Shown here: piece after piece, positions 4,616-64,000 of the stretch | Layout of the letters: each line of letters opens with the position of its first letter | Position numbering within the stretch: the stretch's first letter is position 1 | NCBI GenBank assembly: GCA_019914995.1 | Contig: CM034140.1 | Coordinates: forward strand, 2,108,001-2,172,000 | DNA: 64,000 nt | Reading direction: 5' to 3' | DNA from: Acanthochlamys bracteata | Taxonomy: Eukaryota; Streptophyta; Magnoliopsida; Pandanales; Velloziaceae | Position numbers and translations under genes: made by a program | The notes under the pieces: generated by a model | The model's database searches: none | What the model was told of the DNA's origin: nothing | What the model saw: the letters and a program-made list of their open reading frames with translations, nothing else

Positions 4616-5395
4616 CATAGTTGTCAGATTCGGACCGGCCCGTCGGAATCGATCTAGAAACCGTCGATTCGGACGGTAAATCGGTCCAGATTTATAAAAA
4701 AACTGTTTATGTAATCGATCCGTTTTGACCCGCTTCAATCCGGTCGATCCGTCCGCCTAGAATCAAATCGGATTGAAAAATTTTTTTAAAAATTATTTAA
4801 AAATTATAAATTGACGATATATAATGAAAAAATAATTATTAATAGTTCTATGTTGAAAAATAATATGTAGTTTAGATTTTGTATTTGGATGTGATAATAC
4901 AAAAATATAATTGATTATTTTATTTGTAAATATTAATTATTAGTGATTTTTAAATTTTTATATTGTAAAATATTTAGACTCAAATATGTATATCTAAAAA
5001 AGTTAGTAATATCTCTTTTATAATTTATCTATTTTATGATTTTATCTTTTTCTAATCTCCTAATTTATTTAAATATTTCTCATTATAAATTTTAGTTGTT
5101 ATTATTGTTGTTGGTGGTGGCAATACTATGGTGGTAATATTTCAATTTTCACTGTGATTATTATTGCTGTTATTGTTGATAGTAATGTCATAATATAAAT
5201 ACTCTGATTTTTTGTTATAATTGCTGTTGTTATTATTATTGGTAGTGTCATTAATAGTAATTTTTTACTGTAATTATTATTATTATTAGTTAAAAATACT
5301 TTAATATTATTGATCAGACGGTTCGACCGGTTGATCCGACGGGTCAATCCGAGAACTGTGATCCGAATAATGTCCGTCCGGTTCTTACAACTATG
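4616..5395. mobile_element. Non-autonomous hAT-like DNA transposon, copy A (780 bp)
   Basis: The element begins CATAGTTGTC and ends ACAACTATG, giving a 9-bp perfect terminal inverted repeat that continues imperfectly into CGGA-rich subterminal DNA. It is flanked by GCCCCAAA (4608-4615) and GCCCCAAG (5396-5403), an 8-bp target duplication with one mismatch. The ends are rich in CCGGTTCGATCC-like motifs and the core is AT-rich with (ATT)n runs. No transposase is encoded. Eight-bp duplications fit the hAT superfamily. A second copy lies at 53180-53972. Confidence 0.85.
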
Positions 5396-51748: not shown

Positions 51749-52784
51749 TGTGATAATCTTATACTTGCTAGATAGATAATTAATGCCCCAATATTTATCA
51801 GAGAGGGATTACACCCCTCTTTACCGACACTTTCATACATCTCCAATTTAGCCATATTCTCATATTTTATTTCTTATTTCTAGAAAAAAAAAACATAGTA
51901 TATTTATTCTTTGTAGCCATGATCATGATCATTTAATTAAATTATAGTTATTCAATCGCTTTATCCAACAGTTTTTAAGACAGTAGTGACTATTATATGT
52001 TTATATCCTTCCATATTTATGTACTCCATCTAATTGTCTACTTTCTCAATTTTAACTACACTCTCTAGTTGTTTTCATTTCACCCTTCCATCTTTGATTC
52101 AGTCATGTGTAGACCTTTTTTGTCTTCTTTATTTTTGGTTTATAATGAGAATGACTATTCAATTATATAATATTGAAATAAAAGATATTTAAAAAGTTTT
52201 TGATAAACAAGTTTGTATGACATACAATACATTTGTATTTTCTATATTTTTAAAAAGTTTATATAAAATATTATCAAAAATTTATCAAAAATTATAAAAT
52301 TTTGAGCAAATAAAAAGTAGTAATATAATCACTGATAAATATTTTCTAAGTGTTGTAAAGGAAGGCAGGCAGGCGGACCACTTAACTCAACCTTCACCCT
52401 CCCTTTCATTTATTCATATAGAAAGTGATAATAAGTGCTTACCTGAATGCTCTTTCATTTCCCAGCTCAAGGACAGCAATGGTTATAAAAGAAACCTGCA
52501 ACAAGTGGGCCACGTCTGGCATGGCTTATTGGAGATGCTAGCCGGTGCGTGTGATATTGAAAAATTTTACTTAATAAAATTTTAATATTTCTTATTTTTA
52601 TATTTAAAAGATTATTTTATAAAAATTTTCAAATACTCCCATTTTTTTCAAGCTCAACAAAGTCTTCCGCGATGCTTTCAAAAATTTTTAAACAATTTGA
52701 AGTAAATGAATAAATTGCATGTCCTCAAATAACTATACATATAAATTTTTTTATTTTTTTTTCCCTGAAGCTCTATTTTTCAGC

Positions 52785-53028
52785 TATTTTCAGAAGCGTC
52801 TCGAAATATTTATAAAAAATATTTTTTAAAATAGAAAATATATTTATTTTATTTCAGAAATAATTTTTATTTTTTATTTCCAAAAAATAATAATAAATAA
52901 AATTCTACGACTAAAATTTTTTTATATTTTTAAACCTTTAAAAATTTTTTATAAAATATTAATAATTTTGTTTTAAATATAAAAAATTAAAAAACATTTT
53001 AATAGAACGCTCGTTCAAATGAACCTTT
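52785..53028 (+). repeat. AT-rich dispersed element, forward orientation
   Basis: Starts AGAAGCGTCTCGAAATATT and ends GAACGCTCGTTCAAATGAAC. Its core resembles that of the copies at 24957 and 40434. Boundaries are approximate. Confidence 0.55.
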
Positions 53029-53179
53029 AGTCCGATCTGAATTGACTTGTTACTTAACAATTTGAAGTCTTGAAGAAACAAGCTTGACAACTCCCAACTA
53101 AAAGTCCATTAACTTCCTTAACAAGGTTCGGTTGGTCTCTGATAAAACATCTTCGTAATAAGATAGATACACATTATAG

Positions 53180-53972
53180 CATAGTGGTAGATCCGGACCG
53201 ACCCGTTCGGATTGATCCGAAAATCGTCGATCTGAACGATAAATCGATCCGGATTTGCAAAAAAATCGTTTATACAATCGACCCGTTTTGATCTATTTTG
53301 ACCCGTTTCAACCCGATCGACCCACCCTTCCGGATCAAATCAGATTAAAAATTTTTTTTAAAAATTAATTAAAAAATTTTAAATTGATGATATATTTAAT
53401 ACCAAAATAATTATTAATAGTTCTATATTGAAAAATAATATATAGTTTAAATTTTGTATTTAGATATGATAATATAAAATTTTAATTAATTATATTTTAT
53501 TTATAAATATAAATTATTAGTGATTTTTAAATTCTTATATTGTAAAAAATATTTAGACTCAAATATGTATACCTAAAGAAGTTAGTTATATCTCTTTTAT
53601 GATTTATCTATTTTATAGTTTTATTTTTTTCTAATCTCCTAATTTATTTAAATATTTATCATTATAAATTTTAGTTATTATTATTATTGTTGGTGGTGGC
53701 AATATTTTAATTTTCGTTGTGATTATTATTACTGTTATTATTGATAGTAATGCCATAATAAAAATACTTTAATTTTTTATTATGATTGCTATAGCTATTA
53801 TTATTAGTAATATTATTGGCAGTAGATTTCTTATTATAATAAAAATTATTAGTTAAAAATACTTTAATATTATTGATCGAATGGTTCGATCGGTTGATCC
53901 GACGGTTTAATTCAAAAATCGTGATTCGGATAATTTTTTTATTTGATTTCTGATTCGATTCTTACAACTATC
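53180..53972. mobile_element. Non-autonomous hAT-like DNA transposon, copy B (793 bp)
   Basis: Starts CATAGTGGTAGATCCGGACC and ends TTCTTACAACTATC, aligned over its length with copy A at 4616-5395 in the same orientation. Flanks are CATTATAG (53172-53179) and CATTGTAG (53973-53980), an 8-bp target duplication with one mismatch. It has lost more CpG and GC bases than copy A and so appears older. No ORF. Confidence 0.85.
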
Positions 53973-54757
53973 CATTGTAGTAACTTTTATGTATCAAGTA
54001 ATCAACAAGAATCTCTTACTTGAAGTTGACGATAGCCCTAGAAACACTTGTCGGTTGCATGAATGACGAATAAAGAAAACGACCACACAACCCTGCTGTC
54101 AACCTTTTTTAGTATTTTCCAATATAGGGACGTTTAGAAGTGACTGACAAACAAAATACAAATTTTTAAAAATTTATTTTAAAATTTTTTTAAAAGTTAT
54201 GTTTTTATTTAAAAATAAAAATTAGATATATAGAAATAATAAACTGAGAGTTTCTTTTCACCCAAACGGCCAACCGGGCAATTAAAAATCAAAATTTTAA
54301 TTAAAATCAGTCTGATTCTATAAAATCTTAATATACATTTTGATAACTATATTAGTTTAAAATATATCATTTTGAGATTTTAATTAAGATCGATCCAAAT
54401 CTATAGAAACATAAATATAAATTTTAAAAAAATATAAATTTGTACTTTCTAGAATTTTCTATATTTATAAATTTTTTATAAAAATTATACTTTTTATTTT
54501 TTAAAAAAATATAAAATACTATAAAATTTTATTAAAAAATATAAAATACTTATTTAAAAATAATAAGTACTTCAAAAATTATCAAAAATTATTTTATCAT
54601 TAAAGACCTTAAAACTTACCGATTCGAAGCGTCGTGTATACTAAAGTTTTAAACTCATTTTGACGAAGTGAGTTGGTAAAAAGTAAATTTGATAAAAAAT
54701 GAGTTTTTGTGTTTATTTTTTTTTTAAATTTTAATTTTGAAAGTAAATTTTTGAAGA
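53973..54757. other. AT-rich intergenic DNA left of the tandem duplication
   Basis: No ORF of note; very AT-rich from about 54140 to 54757, with possible fragments of the dispersed AT element. Confidence 0.5.
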
Positions 54758-57700
54758 AATAACTGAGTTTAATTTTTATATTTAGTTTATTTTAAAATAA
54801 ATTAAAAATTAAAAGTGAATTTAATGAAAAATAAGTTTGAAAAATTAGTAAATACGTCAGAATCCGCCTGACTGCATGTTTTATTGAATCTTGGAATAAG
54901 GCCAATTATTCATGGGGCTAGGTCTTATTCTATTGCTATTTGGAAGCCCAGTTATCTCATCAAAGGTTTTCTTTTTTCAATTTCTGAAATAACTATCATA
55001 CATAAAGAGTTTATAAGCAAAATGGATATTCTTTATTATTATTTTTTTATTTTTTTATTTTTTGAGAACAAGAAAAACAGTAAGTAACTAATATCTTTAA
55101 GCTGAGTCTATGTACATAGAATAAAATGAAACAAGCATGCAGTAGTCACATTATAAAATATAATTTTGTAAAATTCAAATCATGATTATTCACTTTTGTT
55201 GACCAAGATTATCGTGGCAAACAAGTCGAGATAATAGAGACCCTGTGACACGTTTTTTTTACATACTTTTAAATAAAAATAAAAGGATCCGTGCACTCTT
55301 GCTATTTGAATAATCAATAGTTAAATATTTACATGAATTCTATTGTGAAATAGATAGGATTTATTAATAGCAGACAAGTACTCTCTCTTGTTTGGACTTG
55401 ATCAAACCAATGGAAGGAAATACAGAAGTCGATCGTTGATTTCAGAATTGAATCATATAAACATCGAGATAACATCACGTCTTCTTAAGATTTTATAAGA
55501 TATTGAAAGTTCAACCACTAATAAAAAAGATCTTTCAATCAAACACCAGATATTTTTTCCCAAGTTTCGGGATAATTTATGACGCAACAAATCATACTCA
55601 CAGGATCTTACTGCCCAAATGTATTTTCATTCATGAAAGATCTCTGTTGATGTTGGCTCTAGTCTTTGTTTAATTTTTTTTTCTTCTTGCATTTTCATGG
55701 AGTTATAACCAAAATAAAGAGAAGGGCATCTCTTGCTCTGAGAAGTGGAATCCTCATTACAATGCAACCATGCCCAATAGTTAAACCAGGATCCACAACA
55801 GCAGCAGGCCTTTGATTTTCACAGAAAACAACAGACGAGAATAGTTACATCTCTTGATCTTCTTTGAAGTAAAAGCAGATGACCACCAGACTGCAGTATA
55901 AATAAGACATACAACCAATTCCATTGCGTCGTTCCTTTCAAAAAATTCACATTATTTCAGCAAAACTGCTTATTGGATTTTTCATTCCAATTATAGAATA
56001 TGGAAATCTCTATACAAGCACTAAGAGTCCGTGCGTATGCTCCTACTAGGAACTCGCAAAGAACATGTAACAAACAGAACAACCGATCAAAGGCAATACA
56101 GACTAGGGCTTGTCCATAATGTCGCTGCTGTCTGATATCCTTCCTGAACCACGGCCTCCCATTCTTCCAAATGAACCCATGGCTGATGTCAAGCCCTTGA
56201 AGCTGCTACTTCCTTCGCTCAAGTTTTGGGACTTCCTTGACTTCCTTAGTTTTGAGGATGTGTCCTCACCCTCATTTGTCTCGGACTTAGCAACAGCTAA
56301 TCGAGCTATGTTGCGACGGCAAAAAGGACAGACAGGGGCAGACACAAGAAGAGTCACAGGATTGGCTTTGTTGTGGCAGCAGAGAGCAAGCATGCAATGG
56401 GCACACATCTGGTGCCCGCAATCTTGGACCTCAATGGTGCAGGGATGCTCAAAGCAAATGCAGCAAAGTTCAGCATCACCATCCTGCAAAATGCCATCTC
56501 ACCATAAATCAAAACCAAAGTTTTTAAGAGCTACTACAGTTGCTTACAAAGATCTCATTACACATTTGCTAGTTTTTACACAGTTTTGCAAAAACTGTGT
56601 AATGATGCAAAGAGCGATATAGCAAGAAGGTTGGGGCTACCTCAGATGCATCGTCGGCCATCCCACTGTCTGAACAAGGAGGAGAAGGTGAGGAACACAC
56701 AACTCCTTCAAGGATTTTCTTCTCCCTCTCCATGTTAGCCTCCATCAGTGCACCCTCTAATAGGGCCTTCGTGATCTGGATTCAACTCGTGTATAAATTT
56801 CAAAGGAGCTGGCCAGACTAAAGGCTCAGCTGATGCTGGGTTCAACAGAGCTGCACAATCCCTGTGCTTTCGCTTTAGTGCTACAATATAAGGGATCCTC
56901 CTGCATTGGATAATAAAAACTCTTCAGCATTGACAGTTCCTTCAAGCACAGTTTGCTGGACGTGACTAAAAAGGCCAAACAGTAGAGTAAAACACATGCC
57001 CCAAATGGATCGTTTTGCCATGGTCCTTCAGGAGTAGTTCATTCAGGAAAAGTGGTATACAGTAATAGCATGCCTGTAGAATTATACAAGTGCATACGAT
57101 CTATTTGCTACCAGTGGATCAATGTGAGTGTAGTATCGAATAAAATATAGCCAATCAAGATGGCATATTTTGTTACCAAAATGTAAGGAACATCATAACA
57201 ATCAAGTATTCAGAATGCTCATTTGAGTAATGCCAGATAACTATCTGCTACTAGCAATGTTAAGAAAAGGAGTAATAAGTACTACCAGTGGGATTTTCAG
57301 AATAATTTTCAGGAAGCTTACGACCAACGCACATGGTACGCCCAAAAGTGATTTTAGTATCACAAATTAAATGCCAAGAACAAGTTTAAGTTGGAAATCA
57401 CAGGCAGCACTAAGTTCTTAGACCTTGCCATATGTATATCTAGATAAAATAAAACTAGACAAAATTCCATCATCCATCGTAAAATATCTGAGAGTAGACC
57501 TGTTTAAACAAGAATCCAATTTCATAAAGCCATTAACCCTTACTTACCCTGAAGCATCTCTTTGAAGCCGGTCAGCTCCCCATGAGAGCAGCTCCCTAAC
57601 ACAATCCAAGCATCCACCACGAGCCGCCAAGTGAAGCGGGGTGCTGCCTGGGAAGCTGCAACGACACCTCTATTAGAATCCAACTACTGAGCACTAACTC

Positions 57701-58869
57701 CAAATTTTTAGGCACAACAATAACTAGCTAAATACATACCCATATCCTCCGGTAGAAGCAGAAACCAGAGCTCCATTATCTAAAAGCATATGTACACAGT
57801 TTCCCGTCGCTGTCTTGAAGCAAGATGCAGTGGAGTAGCTCCATATCCATCTCTTATGTTCACAAACCGTGCAAATCCCCTAAATGAATTCCAATAAACA
57901 ACAAAAAGTGCTCGTTAGATCCCACAAACTTTTGGAATACAAAAGTCCATATGTAACCATAAATAGGACCCACACCATGAATAGGCAACCTGGGTTGTCT
58001 TAGCAGCTGTTAGAATGACTTCCATGCAGTCGGTGTGGCCATAGTAGGCAGCATAGTGCAAGCAAGTCCGTCCATGTAATGAATCAAACATTAAGACCTA
58101 TAGTTGAAACAAGTAAACACAGATCACTGATTGCATTATGGACCGTAGATCCACAAAGGAACTACAAAACAGAACGGTTCGGAGCTTACGTTGGCACCTG
58201 CTTGTAGGAGCTTTTGTACACAGGCAATCTTCCCATGCATCGCAGCCAGCATCAACGGAGTCTGCAACCCATAACACGACCAAAATCAAACAAATTTCAC
58301 CTTCCGTTGATTTTTTTAAAAAAAATATGTATTGAAAACGTAACCAAAATTTCAGCTCAGGAAGCTTTCCGTGGCAAGATCTCGTACCTGTTTGTGTCGG
58401 TTAACGATATCCGGTGGAACAGATCGATCCAAGAGCATTGTTAGCACCTGCAGACATCACAGAACAGAAATTCCAACCCTGTTACAATCTGTTTTCAACT
58501 CGGCATTCAAGCTGCTGATTCTTAAATGAAAAATCAATGTCCCGACCAAATTATAAGCTGCTTATCAAAATATTGTTTGTACACACAAGCTCAAACTGCT
58601 CAATAGGTAGAAAAGATCAAGCAGCTCACTAGATTTCTGTGCTCTATCCAGAAACATAATCTGCAACTTTTGAGTCATCCAAATAATCAAGCTGCTTATT
58701 ACACTTCTGGGTTTCAATACAAAATCTCAAACTGCTTATTGAATTACTTATTCAATCTTTTCAACAGATTCCACCATTTCTGCACTTGGAAACTTAAAAA
58801 CCCAGTAAAGAAGAAGGAAAACAAATGGCGACCTGGAGTCTGCCATTAGCAGCAGCGATATGTACTGCA
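54758..58869. repeat. Tandem segmental duplication, left unit (about 4.11 kb)
   Basis: Nearly identical over its full length to 58870-62981. The left unit starts at AATAACTGAGTTTAA and ends inside the XBAT31-type first exon at TATGTACTGCA. The differences I noticed number about a dozen, mostly 1-2 base indels, several in homopolymers. The first 1.35 kb (54758-56102) is 3' flanking DNA without a recognised gene. Confidence 0.95.
56103..58869 (-). pseudogene. 5'-truncated, frameshifted duplicate of the XBAT31-type gene
   Basis: All downstream exons of the intact gene are present: 58447-58388, 58261-58190, 58097-57976, 57879-57740, 57655-57548, 56900-56641 and 56483-56103. Only the last 37 bases of exon 1 (58869-58833) remain, so the start codon and promoter are missing. 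The exon at 57879-57740 is one base short (CCC for CCCC near 57804), shifting into an early stop. The exon at 56900-56641 is one base long (CGTGATC for CGCATC near 56770). The RING exon itself is intact. It would not make the normal protein. It could be a real decayed duplicate or an assembly artefact. Confidence 0.85.
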
Positions 58870-61800
58870 ATAACTGAGTTTAATTTTTATATTTAGTTTA
58901 TTTTAAAATAAATTAAAAATTAAAAGTGAATTTAATGAAAAATAAGTTTGAAAAATTAGTAAATACGTCAGAATCCGCCTGACTGCATGTTTTATTGAAT
59001 CTTGGAATAAGGCCAATTATTCATGGGGCTAGGTCTTATTCTATTGCTATTTGGAAGCCCAGTTATCTCATCAAAGGTTTTCTTTTTTCAATTTCTGAAA
59101 TAACTATCATACATAAAGAGTTTATAAGCAAAATGGATATTCTTTATTATTATTTTTTTTTTTTTTATTTTTTGAGAACAAGAAAAACAGTAAGTAACTA
59201 ATATCTTTAAGCTGAGTCTATGTACATAGAATAAAATGAAACAAGCATGCAGTAGTCACATTATAAAATATAATTTTGTAAAATTCAAATCATGATTATT
59301 CACTTTTGTTGACCAAGATTATCGTGGCAAACAAGTCGAGATAATAGAGACCCTGTGACACGTTTTTTTTACATACTTTTAAATAAAAATAAAAGGATCC
59401 GTGCACTCTTGCTATTTGAATAATCAATAGTTAAATATTTACATGAATTCTATTGTGAAATAGATAGGATTTATTAATAGCAGACAAGTACTCTCTCTTG
59501 TTTGGACTTGATCAAACCAATGGAAGGAAATACAGAAGTCGATCGTTGATTTCAGAATTGAATCATATAAACATCGAGATAACATCACGTCTTCTTAAGA
59601 TTTTATAAGATATTGAAAGTTCAACCACTAATAAAAAAGATCTTTCAATCAAACACCAGATATTTTTTCCCAAGTTTCGGGATAATTTATGACGCAACAA
59701 ATCATACTCACAGGATCTTACTGCCCAAATGTATTTTCATTCATGAAAGATCTCTGTTGATGTTGGCTCTAGTCTTTGTTTAATTTTTTTTTTCTTCTTG
59801 CATTTTCATGGAGTTATAACCAAAATAAAGAGAAGGGCATCTCTTGCTCTGAGAAGTGGAATCCTCATTACAATGCAACCATGCCCAATAGTTAAACCAG
59901 GATCCACAACAGCAGCAGGCCTTTGATTTCTCACAGAAAACAACAGACGAGAATAGTTACATCTCTTGATCTTCTTGAAGTAAAAGCAGATGACCACCAG
60001 ACTGCAGTATAAATAAGACATACAACCAATTCCATTGCGTCGTTCCTTTCAAAAAATTCACATTATTTCAGCAAAACTGCTTATTGGATTTTTCATTCCA
60101 ATTATAGAATATGGAAATCTCTATACAAGCACTAAGAGTCCGTGCGTATGCTCCTACTAGGAACTCGCAAAGAACATGTAACAAACAGAACAACCGATCA
60201 AAGGCAATACAGACTAGGGCTTGTCCATAATGTCGCTGCTGTCTGATATCCTTCCTGAACCACGGCCTCCCATTCTTCCAAATGAACCCATGGCTGATGT
60301 CAAGCCCTTGAAGCTGCTACTTCCTTCGCTCAAGTTTTGGGACTTCCTTGACTTCCTTAGTTTTGAGGATGTGTCCTCACCCTCATTTGTCTCGGACTTA
60401 GCAACAGCTAATCGAGCTATGTTGCGACGGCAAAAAGGACAGACAGGGGCAGACACAAGAAGAGTCACAGGATTGGCTTTGTTGTGGCAGCAGAGAGCAA
60501 GCATGCAATGGGCACACATCTGGTGCCCGCAATCTTGGACCTCAATGGTGCAGGGATGCTCAAAGCAAATGCAGCAAAGTTCAGCATCACCATCCTGCAA
60601 AATGCCATCTCACCATAAATCAAAACCAAAGTTTTTAAGAGCTACTACAGTTGCTTACAAAGATCTCATTACACATTTGCTAGTTTTTACACAGTTTTGC
60701 AAAAACTGTGTAATGATGCAAAGAGCGATAGCAAGAAGGTTGGGGCTACCTCAGATGCATCGTCGGCCATCCCACTGTCTGAACAAGGAGGAGAAGGTGA
60801 GGAACACACAACTCCTTCAAGGATTTTCTTCTCCCTCTCCATGTTAGCCTCCATCAGTGCACCCTCTAATAGGGCCTTCGCATCTGGATTCAACTCGTGT
60901 ATAAATTTCAAAGGAGCTGGCCAGACTAAAGGCTCAGCTGATGCTGGGTTCAACAGAGCTGCACAATCCCTGTGCTTTCGCTTTAGTGCTACAATATAAG
61001 GGATCCTCCTGCATTGGATAATAAAAACTCTTCAGCATTGACAGTTCCTTCAAGCACAGTTTGCTGGACGTGACTAAAAAGGCCAAACAGTAGAGTAAAA
61101 CACATGCCCCAAATGGATCGTTTTGCCATGGTCCTTCAGGAGTAGTTCATTCAGGAAAAGTGGTATACAGTAATAGCATGCCTGTAGAATTATACAAGTG
61201 CATACGATCTATTTGCTACCAGTGGATCAATGTGAGTGTAGTATCGAATAAAATATAGCCAATCAAGATGGCATATTTTGTTACCAAAATGTAAGGAACA
61301 TCATAACAATCAAGTATTCAGAATGCTCATTTGAGTAATGCCAGATAACTATCTGCTACTAGCAATGTTAAGAAAAGGAGTAATAAGTACTACCAGTGGG
61401 ATTTTCAGAATAATTTTCAGGAAGCTTACGACCAACGACATGGTACGCTAAAAAAGTGATTTTAGTATCACAAATTAAATGCCAAGAACAAGTTTAAGTT
61501 GGAAATCACAGGCAGCACTAAGTTCTTAGACCTTGCCATATGTATATCTAGATAAAATAAAACTAGACAAAATTCCATCATCCATCGTAAAATATCTGAG
61601 AGTAGACCTGTTTAAACAAGAATCCAATTTCATAAAGCCATTAACCCTTACTTACCCTGAAGCATCTCTTTGAAGCCGGTCAGCTCCCCATGAGAGCAGC
61701 TCCCTAACACAATCCAAGCATCCACCACGAGCCGCCAAGTGAAGCGGGGTGCTGCCTGGGAAGCTGCAACGACACCTCTATTAGAATCCAACTACTGAGC

Positions 61801-62981
61801 ACTAACTCCAAATTTTTTAGGCACAACAATAACTAGCTAAATACATACCCATATCCTCCGGTAGAAGCAGAAACCAGAGCTCCATTATCTAAAAGCATAT
61901 GTACACAGTTTCCCCGTCGCTGTCTTGAAGCAAGATGCAGTGGAGTAGCTCCATATCCATCTCTTATGTTCACAAACCGTGCAAATCCCCTAAATGAATT
62001 CCAATAAACAACAAAAAGTGCTCGTTAGATCCCACAAACTTTTGGAATACAAAAGTCCATATGTAACCATAAATAGGACCCACACCATGAATAGGCAACC
62101 TGGGTTGTCTTAGCAGCTGTTAGAATGACTTCCATGCAGTCGGTGTGGCCATAGTAGGCAGCATAGTGCAAGCAAGTCCGTCCATGTAATGAATCAAACA
62201 TTAAGACCTATAGTTGAAACAAGTAAACACAGATCACTGATTGCATTATGGACCGTAGATCCACAAAGGAACTACAAAACAGAACGGTTACGGAGCTTAC
62301 GTTGGCACCTGCTTGTAGGAGCTTTTGTACACAGGCAATCTTCCCATGCATCGCAGCCAGCATCAACGGAGTCTGCAACCCATAACACGACCAAAATCAA
62401 ACAAATTTCACCTTCCGTTGATTTTTTTAAAAAAAATATGTATTGAAAACGTAACCAAAATTTCAGCTCAGGAAGCTTTCCGTGGCAAGATCTCGTACCT
62501 GTTTGTGTCGGTTAACGATATCCGGTGGAACAGATCGATCCAAGAGCATTGTTAGCACCTGCAGACATCACAGAACAGAAATTCCAACCCTGTTACAATC
62601 TGTTTTCAACTCGGCATTCAAGCTGCTGATTCTTAAATGAAAAATCAATGTCCCGACCAAATTATAAGCTGCTTATCAAAATATTGTTTGTACACACAAG
62701 CTCAAACTGCTCAATAGGTAGAAAAGATCAAGCAGCTCACTAGATTTCTGTGCTCTATCCAGAAACATAATCTGCAACTTTTGAGTCATCCAAATAATCA
62801 AGCTGCTTATTACACTTCTGGGTTTCAATACAAAATCTCAAACTGCTTATTGAATTACTTATTCAATCTTTTCAACAGATTCCACCATTTCTGCACTTGG
62901 AAACTTAAAAAACCCAGTAAAGAAGAAGGAAAACAAATGGCGACCTGGAGTCTGCCATTAGCAGCAGCGATATGTACTGCA
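58870..62981. repeat. Tandem segmental duplication, right unit (about 4.11 kb)
   Basis: Second direct copy, joined to the left unit at 58869/58870, where exon 1 sequence (TGTACTGCA) switches abruptly to ATAACTGAG. It runs to base 62981 and then continues into the rest of exon 1, so this copy is in the native setting. 58870-60213 is 3' flanking DNA without a recognised gene. Confidence 0.95.
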
Positions 62982-63127
62982 GCGAGTCGGTCATAGATTG
63001 TCGGGCGGAGAAGAAGCGAAGGGTCGAGACGGAGAGCTGAATCAACTGCGGCCACGTCGCCGGACTGCACAGCAGAGAAAAAATCGTGCTCCTCAATGGA
63101 GCGCGTGCAGCTGACTCCCTGTCCCAT
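60214..63127 (-). CDS. XBAT31: RING-type E3 ubiquitin ligase with ankyrin repeats, XBAT31 type
   Basis: Exons 63127-62945, 62558-62499, 62372-62301, 62207-62086, 61989-61849, 61763-61656, 61008-60750 and 60594-60214 join in frame to 441 residues. The start MGQGVSC (ATG at 63127) gives a possible N-myristoylation glycine. Ankyrin repeats span about residues 12-260 (AAVHIAAANGRLQ, TPLMLAAMHGK, GRTCLHYAAYYGH, ATPLHLASRQRR, STPLHLAARGG). A C3HC4 RING finger at about 322-372 starts CCICFEHPC and ends CPFCRRN. The tail carries SEGSSSFKG and GRMGGRGSGR, family signatures. The protein would transfer ubiquitin to ankyrin-bound substrates; related Arabidopsis ligases act in growth and stress signalling. 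All exons are intact, unlike the copy to the left. Confidence 0.93.
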
Positions 63128-64000
63128 CACCGGAGCTGACCACCGTCGCCGCGCGAAGGGTAACGTGCGCAGGTGGAGGTGGTGGTGGGAGGGAATAGAG
63201 TGTGATGGTGGTGGGTGGTGAGGAAGAAAGAAACAAAATAGAAGGAAATGCATTTTAAGGAAGAATTGTACTGCTGCATCATGGTCAGACACTGCGGTGC
63301 GGTCACCTCCCTGCTTGCAATAACAAATAAAAACTTTAGGAACAAATCTGTTTAAACAAATTTATTTTAAGTATATTGAAAAAAAAAACTAGATTTTGTA
63401 ATTTATAAATAAGAAAGTTAAAATACTAGAAACAAATCCAACACTTCAACATATTTTCTTAAAGTAGAGTTAGTAATTTAAAGTTATATCCCATATAGCT
63501 GTGTATGAAATTTTGCTAATTAATATCTAATCACTTGTTCGGGTCACTAACATCACCGGAGGTGACTGCACTGCGGTAGTGAAGTAATATATATTAAGGA
63601 GTTGTTTGATTTTATTTATTACAAAATAGTTTCTAAAATTCAAAAAATTTATATTTTGAAAAAATAAAAGTATTTTTTATTTTAAAAAAGTTATATTTTA
63701 TAAGTAATATCAGGTGCATCTAAATAAGAATCAAAGTTAACGGGTATTTGTGGATAACATGTTTAGTTCTAAGTTTGGGATTATTTTTGTTTGGTGACAG
63801 GTTAATTATCTTTATGGTTTTTTTGAATCTATAAGAGTTGCAACATTTAATTAGATTTTTAGAGTAGACTCAACACCTAAGTACAAAAAGTAGGCAACTA
63901 CTTTTGTAGATTAATTGAACTAAGAATTATATAACATTATTGATTTTATTCAGTTTAACAAAAGAAAAAATGTAAAATTAAGATCTTGTGGGGATGTTTA
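63128..64000. other. Promoter region of the XBAT31-type gene and AT-rich flank
   Basis: 63128-63230 is rich in CACCACC on the minus strand and is a likely 5' UTR. Beyond 63340 the DNA is AT-rich, with no recognised gene. A frame open upstream of the ATG (to 63292) probably does not code, as family members start at MGQG. Confidence 0.5.

Follow-up and report, generated by a model that had tools for sequence, protein, structure and literature searches.

Within the 64,000-nucleotide window of Acanthochlamys bracteata DNA analysed here (C15:2108001-2172000 of a 195.5-Mb genome in 557 contigs), a unit of about 4.1 kb carrying nearly all of a gene for an XB3/XBAT31-type ankyrin-RING E3 ubiquitin ligase stands twice in direct tandem. 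Our results support the notion, to which we give a probability of roughly 60%, that the second copy is a homotype false duplication, i.e. an artefact of assembly rather than biology. The few differences between the copies are led by short insertions and deletions (indels), in contrast to those between other duplicates of the same assembly. The odds given to this reading and, in words, to its two rivals are a matter of judgement. Judged by its genes, the window itself appears to be plant DNA. For the squash-inhibitor family PF00299 the genome gave 0 matches, in a scan in which no control scored either.

Structure of the duplication

Self-comparison of the window revealed one dominant pair, direct and abutting, made up of copy A (54758-58869, 4112 bases) and copy B (58869-62981, 4113 bases), both with the gene on the minus strand and with base 58869 counted in both. 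An earlier note, made from the letters of this DNA, had described two direct copies abutting without a spacer, with an offset of 4111 at the left edge and 4112 at the right edge, and self-comparison and alignment bear this out. The copies are 99.6% identical, 4103 of 4119 alignment columns being the same. No N occurs anywhere in the window, and the joint (58868-58871) shows neither gap nor spacer; the homology there amounts to one base (A), in agreement with the note's view of a joint in exon 1 with almost no homology at the breakpoint. In the 214 kb around the duplication, no self-match of more than 300 bases (megablast) was longer or closer than that of A and B; the next-longest covers 1742 columns at 85%, and the duplication is thus far above chance. 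Adjacent near-identical copies of this kind are what a homotype false duplication presents. Around the left edge the DNA is AT-rich (21.5% GC over 1 kb, 3rd percentile of the 214 kb), so that this edge would be a plausible contig end. At the right breakpoint, a CTGCAG (PstI-like) site at 62977 coincides with the edge; it is probably a coincidence, as the window holds 29 such sites, and no weight was given to it.

Compared with its own genome, a 1.5-kb piece of the unit matched these two copies at 100% and otherwise only paralogues at 70-75%. Two further pieces, one to the left of the duplication (52300-54757) and one covering its right end and the sequence beyond (62700-64000), matched in full length at their own place only, the other matches being interspersed repeats and the paralogue on C10. 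A contig carrying the locus just once did not turn up in these own-genome searches, in which common words were skipped and only the best candidates scored.

Differences between the copies

Twelve difference events separate copies A and B, in line with the dozen or so announced in the earlier note, and all twelve include an indel of 1-2 bases. None is a lone substitution; base changes accompany the indel in two events. The note was right about the 1-2-base indels, and went too far in placing almost all of them in or near homopolymers: runs of 4 or more equal bases, counted in either copy, are touched by 7 of the 12 events and missed by the other 5.

Expressed as mismatch columns to gap events, the A/B comparison gives 3:12, versus 504:36 for four other duplicate pairs of the assembly (Fisher p 1.7e-11), with one alignment per pair and the trimmed second piece of one tandem pair (86:9) left out of the sum; these control pairs, at 82-93% identity, are far older duplicates than A/B, and they include two non-tandem cases, one an inverted pair and the other two copies of an interspersed repeat. 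When A/B is set against a single control, the tandem pair on C11 that favours the contrast least (41:9, or 43:8 with another aligner), p is still 2e-5. The substitution-led divergence of other duplicates, expected of a real recent tandem duplication, is therefore absent from A and B, which leaves a duplication with zero divergence possible. Because the events are indel-only and the four other pairs diverge mainly by substitution, the best reading of the differences is that they are leftover errors of the read consensus, present in A and probably in B as well, and the true divergence of the copies may be zero. This, together with the two frameshifts confined to one copy, speaks for the noisy-read consensus that the note had put forward as one option. 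As for tandem pairs elsewhere, one lies on the same contig (C15:2206336-2216436), its members being separated by about 7.6 kb, 87-92% identical and diverged mainly by substitution; another, with RRM matches, is formed by C11:5028678-5029496 and C11:5034207-5035030, which lie at a distance of 5.5 kb and share 93.5% identity over 827 columns, an alignment that runs to the end of the examined stretch.

Two events fall in coding sequence, and both frameshift copy A: a 1-base indel in exon 5 (57803, within 57802-57804 on the minus strand) and an indel with a base change in exon 7 (56772, within 56771-56774 on the minus strand). At both sites the frame is kept in copy B and in the C10 paralogue (C10:2202318-2206229), two frames of which each match copy B in one piece and copy A in two pieces of different frame. 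This paralogue, about 75% identical, also served as the outgroup for polarising the events, with a clear result in 6 of the 12 and a weak or impossible one in the other 6. The change lies in copy A at 55863, 56617, 56772, 57803 and 58180. Copy B is the changed one at 57342/61449 (intronic CC/TAA), where GCCCAAAAGTG is common to A and the C10 paralogue; this site is one of two clustered intronic differences (57330-57344, minus strand), with A equal to the paralogue at 57342-57343 and B changed at 61449-61451. Two sites in homopolymer runs, 59160 and 57705/61813, are weakly polarised and lean to a change in B. Polarised in this way, neither copy is probably clean and errors would lie on both sides, though the coding sequence of B is open.

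The earlier note had also proposed uncollapsed haplotypes, that is, a heterotype false duplication in which two haplotypes of a heterozygous plant were placed in succession. Near-identical abutting copies are the usual look of such a case, and the intronic CC/TAA difference, where copy A agrees with the C10 paralogue, might be truly allelic. However, lone single-nucleotide polymorphisms (SNPs) between the copies number 0 among the 12 events over 4.1 kb, about 2.9 kb of which is non-coding, and two of the differences would have to be frameshifts inside conserved exons. Since lone SNPs are absent, diverged haplotypes are very improbable, and we dropped that part of the note.

As a coarse background control, matches without an internal stop were counted for kinase (117/131), AP2 (97/97), RRM (146/150) and XB3-RING (18/18) domains, and interruptions of conserved domains elsewhere in the assembly proved rare; these counts are biased to intact matches, as broken domains score lower, and the stops may stem from introns. 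The candidates scored were 122 of 1774 for kinases and 150 of 448 for RRM.

The ligase gene and its two copies

The intact gene runs on the minus strand in eight exons from 63127 down to 60214, with GT-AG introns and an open frame of 441 aa. The coding part of exon 1 (62945-63127), with an ATG start, an open frame and a splice donor, crosses the unit edge at 62981. It is followed by exons 2 (62499-62558), 3 (62301-62372), 4 (62086-62207), 5 (61849-61989), 6 (61656-61763) and 7 (60750-61008) and by the coding part of exon 8 (60214-60594), which bears the RING_XB3-XBAT31 domain and the stop. The product has ankyrin repeats (Ank_2, 117.2 bits against a cut-off of 27.3, E 5e-34) and then the RING_XB3-XBAT31 domain (74.2 bits against a curated cut-off of 50), the order and strength of match by which we assign it to the XB3/XBAT31-type E3 ligases. 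Compared with known members of this type, the intact copy shows both domain types and nothing unusual was seen. In the relevant part of a review (PMC9246330), XBAT31 and XBAT35 are reported to send the thermosensor ELF3 to degradation at warm temperature.

The earlier note's statement that the duplication splits the first exon is misleading, for the gene is not split. The right unit edge falls within exon 1 and copy B continues into its natural flank, so that the working copy has a complete exon 1 (63127-62945) and all eight exons are present, while copy A is a second, headless copy. Copy A spans the last 37 bases of exon 1 to past the 3' end of the gene and carries the two frameshifts; it is without the first 146 of the 183 coding bases of exon 1, including the original start codon, and without the upstream region. 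In the direction of the gene, the 3' downstream sequence in copy B runs straight into the remaining 37 bases. Just ahead of this truncated exon lies an AT-rich stretch whose last bases, TTATTGCAG, look like a splice acceptor.

RING_XB3-XBAT31 matches above the cut-off were also found on C8, C10, C11 and C19. Besides the C10 paralogue, two further paralogues of the gene, at C8:936022-936381 and C11:7176255-7176625, likewise have one RING match each. The region of the C10 paralogue also matches further stretches near the C15 gene, and this likeness suggests an old segmental or whole-genome duplication.

Two kinds of interspersed repeat were seen in the window. One, of about 0.8 kb, lies at 53180-53934 and 4616-5371, with about 40 copies listed genome-wide at 80-87% identity (the best 40 of 2946 candidates); its nearer copy sits about 0.8 kb left of the duplication. 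The other is short, lies at about 63590-63740 and occurs on both strands genome-wide (the best 40 of 589 candidates); by its appearance it is like a miniature inverted-repeat transposable element.

Origin of the second copy

A homotype false duplication would be one stretch of a single haplotype written twice in tandem. It might have arisen, for example, from contig ends sharing a 4.1-kb overlap that were placed one after the other, or from a gap filled with sequence repeating its flank. The copies would then vie for the same reads, and because of this competition polishing would be incomplete on both, leaving indels of 1-2 bases; the real locus would be one intact XB3/XBAT31-type gene. The one-base difference at 58796/62907, a single homopolymer site 73 bases from the joint, may be a small hint in the same direction: short reads across a real joint could presumably have been placed uniquely there, provided that polishing of this sort took place.

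Several observations weigh against this explanation. The gap usual between such copies is absent here, with no N at the joint. Equal-scoring neighbours, sought by eye among the matches scored as matches on the same contig within about 20 kb, gave no other such pair among 131 kinase, 97 AP2 and 150 RRM matches, so that artefacts of this kind are not shown to be common in the assembly; pairs within 0.2 bits did occur, among them the kinases C2:12622525/12631214 and C1:13171608/13189683 and the RRM matches C11:5028758/5034287 (93.5% identical), and in the XB3-RING list A and B are the sole equal-scoring neighbours. Moreover, residual indels would persist in a real perfect duplication too, which errors on both copies would fit at least as well.

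A real and very young tandem duplication would be hard to tell from such an artefact, since polishing reads are contested between identical copies, and we consider it the weaker of two serious candidates. It is conceivable that end joining or template switching, using one-base microhomology, produced a second copy of the 4.1 kb. On this account, which we hold tentatively, the gene would stay intact, a second, headless copy lacking the native upstream region would be added downstream of it, and the indels would be consensus errors beyond the reach of short-read polishing. The sequence is continuous, and the one-base microhomology fits end joining, though it is often expected by chance; the probable errors on both copies suit a symmetric competition for reads. 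At an assumed rate of 7e-9 per site per year, the want of any lone substitution bounds the age at about 52,000 years; with the 3 mismatch columns all counted, the bound rises to about 135,000. In contrast, the indel-only events give no sign of true divergence, the difference close to the joint might, as said, have been open to polishing, and the joint is without independent support. We give somewhat less than even odds to the possibility that the tandem duplication is real, that it dates back some tens of thousands of years at the most, being found perhaps in this plant alone, and that it was caught before any substitution. If so, read-through transcripts of the intact gene could splice into copy A.

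Either way, the feature is of an ordinary kind. It is probably no biological feature; if it were one, it would be a new member of a well-known kind. As an artefact, it would give the annotation a false frameshifted gene beside the real one and raise the count of the XB3/XBAT31 family by one. A real duplication would offer a cleanly joined partial gene copy of very recent origin for the study of how such copies arise and vanish. In addition, the indel-only test against duplicates of the same assembly offers a cheap screen for similar cases.

To conclude, the pair can be set beside two known systems. As in partial tandem gene duplication by end joining in general, the copies are direct and abutting, there is little homology at the joint and one copy is truncated; unlike there, no lone substitution separates A from B. 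The other comparison is with the homotype false duplications of the Vertebrate Genomes Project. In the parts of its reports that describe them (PMC8081667, PMC9516828), these often lie at contig boundaries, measure about a read length and differ in consensus quality, a picture that suits the A/B pair well. The A/B pair departs from these in having no assembly gap between the copies and in being known here from the assembled sequence; it resembles them in its near-identical adjacent copies, the lack of lone allelic variants, the probable consensus errors and a length in the range of reads.
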